Virus record (IMG/VR): IMGVR_UViG_3300047321_000792
Location: 1-38,337 of that record
DNA: 38,337 nt
Source: a virus
Strand: one strand, 5' to 3'
The notes under the pieces were generated by a model that worked only from the letters and a program-made list of their open reading frames with translations, was not told the DNA's origin and made no database searches. Each line of letters opens with the position of its first letter. The first letter of the stretch is position 1. The position numbers and the translations under genes are program-made. This document shows, piece by piece, positions 2,623 to 4,720 of this stretch.

Positions 2623-3387
2623 TTACGAGTTGTTCGCTATGTCGGCTTCTGCCATTTCGCAGAAGAACGAGCAGGAGGGGATTTTCTCGTTACGCCGTAC
2701 TGGGCCGTCGCCGAGGTTGCGCAGGGAGAAGCGGATATTGGTGGCGCGATCACGAAACAGATACGAGCCTTCGCCCAATTCGTCTTGGATCGCGCACAAC
2801 TCTTCAAACTGCTCAGGAAAGTCTTCGCGAATGGCTCGGAAGTAGCCTTCGCCACCTTTCACGCAGCCGATGCAGTTGGCATTGTCGTAGCCCAGGCGAT
2901 ACATCAGCGGCAACTCGATTCCCGCACGTTCGACCATTGCCTTGCAGTCGTCCTTCCCCAGTCCGGCATCAATCAAAGGGGCGATTACAGGGCGATCAGT
3001 ATTTCGATCGCGAAAGTCTTCCAAGCGGTCGACCTCTTCAGCGGTGTATCCGAACACCATGACGTCGCCTGGTTGCTTCCAAGAATCGAGCAGCCGGCGC
3101 TTGAGCAGCCTGGTACAAGGTGCGCCGTTGCGGCCTCTCATGAAGCGTTCACGCCGAAACACCTGAGTGATATCGGCGCCGTACTTCTCGTCCCTAAGTT
3201 GCACAATCTCCTGTCCGAACCAATCCTGGCAGTTCTGAAGGAAGCGCCGGTTGTCTGCGTGCTCATTGGCCAGAAACGCATTGATGATTTGCACATCGTG
3301 TGTCGCACCGTACTGCGCCAGTGCCAGCTTGGTCGCCACCGCCGACGCGGCGCCGCAACTGAACTGGCAGACGATCCTGTTGTTCAT
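2623..3387 (-). CDS. PAPS reductase-like PP-loop protein
   Basis: This 254-residue protein is related to the phosphoadenosine-phosphosulfate reductase/PP-loop ATPase group. The start is ATG 3385-3387, behind AAGGGGCCGTGGCG and overlapping the stop of an 18-aa ORF (ATGA). The nucleotide loop CQFSCGAASAVA (residues 7-18) is the phage version of SGGxDS. APCTRLLKRR and the CIGCVKGG pair of Cys suggest substrate and metal contacts. True sulfate assimilation is unlikely. Relatives include DndC-type proteins acting in DNA sulfur modification, and phage members of unknown role. Substrate unknown. It belongs to the coupled gene chain 2623-4409. Confidence 0.8.
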   Translation of the reverse strand: MNNRIVCQFSCGAASAVATKLALAQYGATHDVQIINAFLANEHADNRRFLQNCQDWFGQEIVQLRDEKYGADITQVFRRERFMRGRNGAPCTRLLKRRLLDSWKQPGDVMVFGYTAEEVDRLEDFRDRNTDRPVIAPLIDAGLGKDDCKAMVERAGIELPLMYRLGYDNANCIGCVKGGEGYFRAIREDFPEQFEELCAIQDELGEGSYLFRDRATNIRFSLRNLGDGPVRRNEKIPSCSFFCEMAEADIANNS

Positions 3388-3440
3388 CGCCACGGCCCCT
3401 TGTAGATGAGGTAGGCCATGTAGAGCGGGGCGAAGATCAT
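3384..3440 (-). CDS. 18-aa hydrophobic micro-ORF, coupled on both sides
   Basis: The frame MIFAPLYMAYLIYKGPWR runs from ATG 3438-3440 to TGA 3384-3386. Its ATG overlaps the stop of the 72-aa gene upstream (ATGA), and its stop overlaps the start of the PAPS-reductase-like gene (ATGA). The peptide is hydrophobic with a basic C-terminus, like a short membrane-associated peptide. It may act as a translational relay, as a real micropeptide, or as both. Support is the exact double overlap and the composition; nothing else shows it is translated. Confidence 0.55.
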   Translation of the reverse strand: MIFAPLYMAYLIYKGPWR

Positions 3441-3655
3441 AGTAGGTGCGCTCCTGCTTCAAGTAGGCCGTCGCGGTCTTCGCGCAGTCGCTGGTTCTCG
3501 GCGATCAGGCTCAGCACTACGGCAGGGGTGGCGGCGGCAGCGAAAGCCGCATCCTCTGAATTCAGCCCTATCGCCTCGAAGTCTGGGGCGGATATATACC
3601 CCCCGACCAGATCAGCATCCTCGGCCAATTGTTTTAGTTTTGAATGGTCGCTCAT
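3437..3655 (-). CDS. Small hypothetical phage protein
   Basis: A 72-residue acidic protein begins MSDHSKLKQLAEDADLVGG at ATG 3653-3655. Residues 40-66 (VVLSLIAENQRLREDRDGLL) form a likely coiled coil, as in the small Ead/Ea22-like accessory proteins of lambdoid phages; that resemblance is loose. An upstream extension of the frame is possible but would run antisense-like through the preceding gene. Start and stop each overlap a micro-ORF by ATGA, so translation is likely coupled. Confidence 0.7.
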   Translation of the reverse strand: MSDHSKLKQLAEDADLVGGYISAPDFEAIGLNSEDAAFAAAATPAVVLSLIAENQRLREDRDGLLEAGAHLL

Positions 3656-3732
3656 CCGATCACCGCCTTTATGGTCAGTACCAATGGAAGCCAGAAGAAG
3701 AGGGTGCAGCCGAGTAAGCACTTGGTGATCAT
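3652..3732 (-). CDS. 26-aa single-span membrane micro-ORF
   Basis: The frame starts at ATG 3730-3732, overlapping the TGA of the ASCH-like gene (ATGA), and ends with TGA 3652-3654, overlapping the ATG of the 72-aa gene. The peptide begins MITKCLLGCTLFFWLPLVLT and ends with IKAVIG. About 18 consecutive residues are hydrophobic, enough for one membrane span, with Cys5 and Cys9 near the N-end. It fills the gap between two real genes exactly, which argues for a genuine translated frame. Function unknown. Confidence 0.6.
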   Translation of the reverse strand: MITKCLLGCTLFFWLPLVLTIKAVIG

Positions 3733-4409
3733 GGCTGCACCCGTTTGAACTCGACGACCCAAACCCACGGGTTGGCGTCCCAGTCGCCGCCGGTGGAGTT
3801 CCACAACTCCTTCCAAGCCGCCGGGTACCAGTCTCGGTAATTCGGCGAAACGTCATCACTTGCCTCCGGCGGACACTGCAGGCCTTCCGCCCGGATATCG
3901 GCGCGGCTGATGTCCTGCAACCGCTCGACGCGCACGTCGGTGATCTCCAGCAGGATGCGGCAGGCCCAGCGCGGCATATGGATCGAAGGCCGAATTTTCC
4001 CTGGTTTTATCATCGCGCAACCGGTTTGCCGGAAGTCCCAATCTGCTGGGTAGCGGATAGGCTCGCCATGGCTCAGCTCGCGCGGCGCGACAGAATCCAC
4101 TTGAGCATCAGCTTGCCAAGCCTCGCGTACCCACAGCCGATCGCCGCGACGGCCGTAAGGGCAGGGTGCAAACTCTTCCAGATCCTTGGCGCACTCCGCT
4201 TCAGTCGCTCCGAATACGCCGAAACCGTAGCGTGAGTCGCGCTGAGCAATGGCCATCCAGCGATGACGCTCGCCGGCCGCAACGGATGCGTCTTCAACCG
4301 GAATCTGCCAGCCTTTGACCTGCCGCCGGGTGACCGTCTTGCGGCCATCCAGAATGGCGCGCACCATCGGCGCTGAGAACAGGATGGGGCGTTCCTTTTC
4401 TTGAGACAT
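3729..4409 (-). CDS. ASCH-like phage protein
   Basis: This 226-residue protein opens with RPILFSAPMVRAILDGRKTV followed by TRRQVKG, the signature of the phage ASCH-like family (a beta-barrel fold thought to bind RNA or modified nucleotides). Later segments GDRLWVREAW, IHMPRWACRILLEITDVRVE, DISRADIRAEG and YPAAWKELWNST follow the order seen in such proteins. Biochemical role is unknown. It heads the chain of overlapping genes running to 2623; about 240 bp without a minus-strand gene lie upstream. Confidence 0.8.
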   Translation of the reverse strand: MSQEKERPILFSAPMVRAILDGRKTVTRRQVKGWQIPVEDASVAAGERHRWMAIAQRDSRYGFGVFGATEAECAKDLEEFAPCPYGRRGDRLWVREAWQADAQVDSVAPRELSHGEPIRYPADWDFRQTGCAMIKPGKIRPSIHMPRWACRILLEITDVRVERLQDISRADIRAEGLQCPPEASDDVSPNYRDWYPAAWKELWNSTGGDWDANPWVWVVEFKRVQP

Positions 4410-4648: not shown

Positions 4649-4720
4649 ATGCAAATTGAGATTACTATCAGGCTAGACCTGAAGTTCTTGATCGTGCTGC
4701 TGAAATGCGCACTATCTTGA
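4649..4720 (+). CDS. 23-aa hydrophobic peptide gene with strong ribosome site
   Basis: ATG 4649-4651 follows CCCAGGAGGTTCTT, a near-perfect ribosome site. The peptide begins MQIEITIRLDLKFLIVLLKC and ends ALS; the C-terminal half is a strongly hydrophobic helix, the N-terminal half alternates like a beta strand or amphipathic helix. It is on the opposite strand to its neighbours and is followed 12 bases later by a hairpin terminator, so it looks like an independent unit. Small membrane-active peptides (toxins, inhibitors of host division, leader peptides) are possible roles; none is shown. Confidence 0.6.
   Translation: MQIEITIRLDLKFLIVLLKCALS

Follow-up and report, generated by a model that had tools for sequence, protein, structure and literature searches.

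Both micro-ORFs examined here, of 18 and 26 codons, are members of conserved DNA units that stand at hundreds of gene joints in Pseudomonas phages and prophages. Each unit consists of an SD sequence, a hydrophobic micro-ORF, and an ATGA start/stop overlap; such units lie between many unrelated gene pairs and come in several interchangeable kinds, and at a single joint the unit may be present, replaced, or absent. We think it probable that the two micro-ORFs represent two kinds of a portable adapter for translational coupling, which temperate phages of Pseudomonas employ in their accessory early region. The window (the whole stretch of DNA that was analysed, 38,337 nt of an IMG/VR virus record) is itself assigned to a temperate phage because it carries integrase, excisionase, RecT, YqaJ recombinase, terminase, and portal genes.

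The first-pass annotation had described a relay of five genes joined by ATGA, and all four overlaps are indeed exact and on the minus strand (3732-3729, 3655-3652, 3440-3437, and 3387-3384), with the body of the PAPS-reductase-like gene falling outside the range 3384-4409 that it had given. In their order along the minus strand, the features are:

3729..4409, minus strand: ASCH-like gene (226 aa, PHROG 874), the upstream gene of the relay
3733..3742, minus strand: GGGTGCAGCC, the SD-type sequence before the 26-aa micro-ORF (anti-SD duplex -6.2 kcal/mol)
3652..3732, minus strand: 26-aa micro-ORF MITKCLLGCTLFFWLPLVLTIKAVIG, the K26 adapter (77 nt from its own ATG to the ATGA of the 72-aa gene)
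3658..3669, minus strand: AAGGCGGTGATC inside the 26-aa micro-ORF, the SD of the 72-aa gene (-13.7 kcal/mol)
3437..3655, minus strand: 72-aa gene (PHROG 4029, weak Ead/Ea22 similarity)
3441..3455, minus strand: AGGAGCGCACCTACT, the 3' end of the 72-aa gene with the SD of the 18-aa micro-ORF (-6.6 kcal/mol)
3384..3440, minus strand: 18-aa micro-ORF MIFAPLYMAYLIYKGPWR, the F-type adapter (53 nt from its own ATG to the next ATGA)
3396..3401, minus strand: AAGGGG (codons Lys-Gly) in the 18-aa micro-ORF, the SD of the PAPS-reductase-like gene (-7.7 kcal/mol)
2623..3387, minus strand: PAPS-reductase-like protein (254 aa, PHROG 424, moron category), the downstream gene

The PAPS-reductase label is borne out by the match to PHROG 424 (E 1e-48); the ASCH label is weak, with PF04266 below the cut-off (E 0.014) and PHROG 874 listed as function unknown. 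The sequence GGGTGCAGCC makes up the last codons (RVQP) of the ASCH-like gene, a place where most copies have GGTGACGCC. The tail of K26, AAGGCGGTGATC, is a near-complete complement of the 16S 3' end, one base off the full complement AAGGAGGTGATC, and columns 62-74 of K26 are ~0.91-1.00 identical between copies. The AAGGGG of the 18-aa micro-ORF sits 8 nt before the ATG of the PAPS-reductase-like gene, and AGGAGCGCACCTACT also adjoins other adapters on their left side.

Lone ATGA-bridged micro-ORFs do occur by chance in spurious frames, where we see many unrelated singletons. For the two micro-ORFs of the window, which had been judged unlikely to bridge their gaps by chance, that judgement holds: their sequences turn up again in unrelated settings, flanked by ATGA on either side, and this recurrence rules out a chance overlap. 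The ASCH-like protein, used as a query, led to 80 viral loci, and in many of them its stop is followed, via the same ATGA, by one of three ORFs: that of 18 aa, spelled in several ways, that of 26 aa, or one of 25 aa, MMLKAAAISACLWGLIFLSVAAVTS; the genes behind these three ORFs differ from locus to locus. Degenerate pattern scans returned 72 stretches of the F type (MIFAPLYMAYLIYKGPWR), 46 of the K type (26 aa), and at least 120 of a W type (MIATLWFAYVFIYKGPRP and MIALAWFAYVYCYKGPR). ATGA is found at both ends in 68 of 70 F (18-aa) copies and 39 of 45 K (26-aa) copies; for W the figure is 71 of 134, and most of the remaining W copies end in TGATG or without coupling. When the F pattern was run over 84,980 species, 13 genomes matched, all of them Pseudomonas. 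W-like units occur in 58 of 399 sampled Pseudomonas genomes (E <= 1e-5) and F-like units in 73 (E <= 1e-4), with a W- or F-like copy in ~108 (the union counted by hand), and a sample of the order gave matches in 4 of 294 genomes, all four also in the genus sample. A tblastn search of phage records with the 26-aa peptide found nothing better than E = 5, and blastn with the DNA of the 26-aa ORF found no match. Loci hold one copy (256) or two (60) and never more, and the pairs in two-copy loci whose positions were inspected sit at separate joints. That such ORFs escape automatic annotation was confirmed in the one record checked, phiAH14a, where a micro-ORF-sized gap lies exactly between two annotated genes. 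For Pseudomonas phages, we found no earlier description of such units in the openly available literature.

Alignments anchored on the micro-ORF start (94-115 copies for W1 and F, 89 for W2, and 66 for K) delimit the unit. Pairwise identity is ~0.30-0.38 upstream to position -10, jumps at -9, where GGTGACGCC starts, stays at ~0.9 or higher through most of the micro-ORF, and drops to ~0.3-0.4, or 0.56 in K, one base past the shared ATGA; the aligned copies have the consensus GGTGACGCC-ATGATC.... These edges are not imposed by the way in which copies were selected, because the search patterns left out the left flank and the right-hand end. The unit is an SD plus a micro-ORF plus ATGA, ~66 nt long in F and W and ~90 nt in K. 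Intact copies include length variants of 16-22 aa, in frame. Common frameshifts, which the first-pass annotation had named as evidence against its reading, were found to a slight extent: 31 of 136 copies are broken or uncoupled (a tally that includes at least one copy that is actually intact), few of them through a frameshift, and about a fifth are without a downstream overlap. In L256, L008, L378, and L406/L407, no downstream gene is coupled to the end of the micro-ORF, and the sequence that follows is non-coding.

The neighbours of the units are diverse. At 298 intact sites, 37 upstream families and 45 downstream families meet in 157 pairings. The ASCH-like family by itself pairs with 19 partners downstream of it; a DNA methyltransferase family, which W, F, and K units all precede, pairs with 11 upstream. 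An adapter that travels with its upstream or its downstream gene is ruled out, all kinds having been found with the same families. The joint between the ASCH-like gene and the 72-aa gene occurs with no insert (L033), with K26 (the window, L302, L082, and L151), and with the unrelated 25-aa micro-ORF (L021 and L059), which has an SD-like GCGGTGACC close to its end. With the unit taken out, L302 aligns with L033 over 400 nt at 90%, gapless, and the presence or absence of K26 amounts to exactly 77 nt from one ATG to the other.

Precise presence/absence at a start codon, no association with either neighbour, and the existence of uncoupled and decayed copies could also be the marks of a selfish or neutral mobile repeat that inserts at ATGA starts and is tolerated since downstream coupling is kept. 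This is the published view of MIRUs, which a 2025 review describes as mobile mycobacterial repeats inserting at start codons, with an ORF coupled at -4 nt spacing (PMC12548453, where the description is traced to Supply 1997). The likeness is considerable: both are short dispersed repeats whose small ORF overlaps the gene at the insertion site (-4 nt), and both are apparently mobile while the downstream gene stays expressed, as the sequences suggest for the units here. The ORF start and stop overlap both neighbours by 4 nt in the proportions given above for F, K, and W, and the units are dispersed among unrelated genes with precise presence/absence at start codons (157 pairings; L033 versus L302 and the window). 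Typed MIRU loci carry tandem, variable-number copies at one site. Among the 256 one-copy and 60 two-copy loci, in contrast, we saw no tandem arrays of units, which moreover come in several interchangeable kinds and are found in Pseudomonas phages and prophages rather than in mycobacterial genomes. By description, the units appear to work like MIRUs; we do not class them as MIRUs, since host, sequence, and the missing tandem arrays differ. That they are nothing but such a repeat seems improbable to us, as there are at most two copies per locus, only one kind of phage region is occupied, and the 3' SD is almost always retained.

This SD stands out in the intact genome copies. Its energy is below -4 kcal/mol in the 15 nt before the downstream start in 102 of 105 copies, and pairing with the 16S 3' end there averages -7.1 kcal/mol versus -4.2 kcal/mol for shuffled sequence. 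The micro-ORF start has an SD better than -4 kcal/mol in 90 of 105 copies (mean -6.8), and the micro-ORF body has almost no SD (mean about -1.3 kcal/mol). The tail spellings AAGGGG, AGGGGG, CGAGGG, ACGGGG, and TCGGGG are varied, yet purine-rich at the right spacing. The unit body is 68% pyrimidine, which through the genetic code leads to hydrophobic residues. Alifold gave no conserved fold of the RNA (z 0.1 and -0.2), no Rfam family matched, and on these two grounds a structured RNA or riboswitch is ruled out.

An SD before the micro-ORF and another inside its last codons, exact overlaps, and swaps between unrelated genes all speak for the earlier suggestion that such ORFs may be relays for translation. 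In a coupling adapter, ribosomes that finish the upstream gene, or that load at the SD in its 3' end, would translate the micro-ORF and terminate at a TGA that coincides with the next start codon; the SD within the last micro-ORF codons would then position the ribosome at the downstream start. The advantage of the adapter may be that the downstream gene would gain a standard start signal regardless of its own 5' sequence; the peptide would chiefly be what a purine-poor leader free of structure happens to encode. Gene pairs overlapped by ATGA or TGATG are associated with translational coupling by termination-reinitiation (PMC6728339), and the overlap geometry is the same here, although theirs joins two real genes and here a separate short unit lies in between. 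Engineered bicistronic designs, cited for the same principle in the MIRU review (PMC12548453), likewise have a short first cistron that holds the SD of cistron 2, with a stop-start overlap; their purpose is context-independent translation, and they are engineered, whereas the units here are natural and shuffled. Phage accessory regions turn over fast, and newcomers need immediate expression within a polycistronic message. A transferable coupler exactly at mosaic joints would explain instant expression and would be a natural counterpart of synthetic bicistronic design, and the units would offer ready-made, Pseudomonas-adapted coupling elements open to direct reporter testing.

Adapters coincide with mosaic breakpoints. 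Among same-strand gene pairs in these loci, those homologous on one side of an adapter are non-homologous on the other in 95-96% of cases (96% of the U-homologous pairs), versus 55-57% at direct ATGA joints; the ratio is indicative, as the sampling of the two sets differs somewhat. Since many joints share the same 55-90 nt, phage annealing recombination could swap genes there, which would make the adapters both expression couplers and sites of cassette change. The window carries a phage RecT along with YqaJ, and lambda Red recombines genes that are 22% diverged efficiently and with high yield (PMC2327257). The same facts could be read to mean that the units are chiefly DNA linkers for module exchange via phage annealing recombinases, with incidental translation signals, and the W type, in which identity peaks in the body and declines toward both ends, would agree with this. 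We consider it very unlikely, given that the 3' SD outlasts sequence replacement (AAGGGG, AGGGGG, CGAGG, ACGGGG) and that exact ATGA/TGATG joints, needless for a bare homology arm, persist. W-type bodies are nevertheless more conserved than their own SD tails, a degree of conservation that exceeds the needs of a pure coupler and could be explained by recent spread or by homology use.

The first-pass annotation had also proposed that the micro-ORFs may encode membrane micropeptides, for which it expected synonymous bias in the two peptide frames. We calculated dN/dS from genome copies found by blastn, excluding the W, F, and K copies found by pattern, since the patterns fix amino acids. Against the consensus, with decayed copies mixed in, dN/dS was ~1; restricted to intact copies, it was 0.33-0.89 by subfamily, with p for a synonymous excess of 0.045-0.54 (0.045 in one subset), and nearest-neighbour events gave 0.72-0.73 (p about 0.25). 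In the same loci, dN/dS was ~0.09-0.23 for the ASCH and PAPS genes (0.68 for one very close ASCH pair) and 0.18-0.48 for the 72-aa gene. The codon-unbiased copies have no robust synonymous excess, and a conserved peptide gene is unsupported. Intact W copies have Asp or Arg in the hydrophobic stretch, and 5 of 18 nonsynonymous events in W introduce such residues versus 9% expected for DEKR; F/A copies have DEKR in none of 21 nonsynonymous changes (expected 10%, p 0.11), and F/A bodies with differing N-termini remain free of DEKR. Judged from these substitutions, selection on the peptide appears weak at most, and a constraint on hydrophobicity in the F/A group is possible.

Genuine membrane micropeptides under selection, with overlaps that only reflect phage gene packing, would account for the DEKR-free F/A bodies, for the in-frame length variants, and for the hydrophobicity of all kinds (W, F/A, K, and the unrelated 25-aa one), which the adapter idea explains only partly because the 25-aa micro-ORF is not purine-poor. 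We nonetheless regard them as unlikely: besides the dN/dS values, charged residues enter the W stretch at or above expectation, an unrelated peptide or none may occupy the same joint, and the DNA edges match start signals and not the ORF alone. The preferred reading as coupling adapters would account for a class of very small hydrophobic ORFs that a survey of small proteins might take for functional membrane peptides.

Other start linkers are present in these phages. The window has two hairpin-SD linkers, TGCCGGTGTATGGCGGGCGAGGTGTCCC-ATG before a 109-aa ORF (2600-2573, minus strand) and CTGCCGCCAAGCGCGGCATGGAGCAATACCTC-ATG before the excisionase (2228-2190, minus strand), and these hairpin-plus-SD motifs occur in 91 and 163 fetched loci, respectively, before many different genes. 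A further hairpin-SD element, CCGCTATAGCGGCAAGGA...ATG, is absent from the window and occurs 330 times in 321 fetched loci, before ~140 different downstream sequences. Hairpin-SD linkers make up another class of standard start linker and recall the ESAS of mycobacteriophages. The SAS and ESAS of cluster K mycobacteriophages are repeated start sequences without micro-ORFs (PMC3203893). Like them, the micro-ORF units are repeated SD-containing sequences that precede the starts of several gene families within a single group of phages; unlike them, the units are not 13-bp sequences and have a micro-ORF and a double overlap. The 13-bp GGGATAGGAGCCC-type sequence is not at the starts of the aligned copies, which have the consensus given above instead, and the hairpin-SD linkers of the window resemble ESAS more than the micro-ORF units do. 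More tentatively, start linkers, micro-ORF couplers, and hairpin-SD elements might form a small kit of Pseudomonas temperate phages that serves both as sockets for expression and as sites for recombination. Whatever gene arrives would then be expressed immediately, and the kit would amount to a plug-in platform for accessory genes, integron-like but integrase-free.

The sequence GGTGACGCC-ATGA (V-T-P-stop) ends unrelated upstream genes at many joints and also links them to different genes directly, with no micro-ORF in between, for example after the ASCH-like gene in L045, L057, and L019; it therefore seems to be the minimal linker. Finally, a small ORF, MQIEITIRLDLKFLIVLLKCALS, with AGGAGG upstream (CCCAGGAGGTTCTT-ATG), lies at 4649-4720 on the plus strand of the window, in the divergent region that separates the ASCH-like gene from the DNA methylase.
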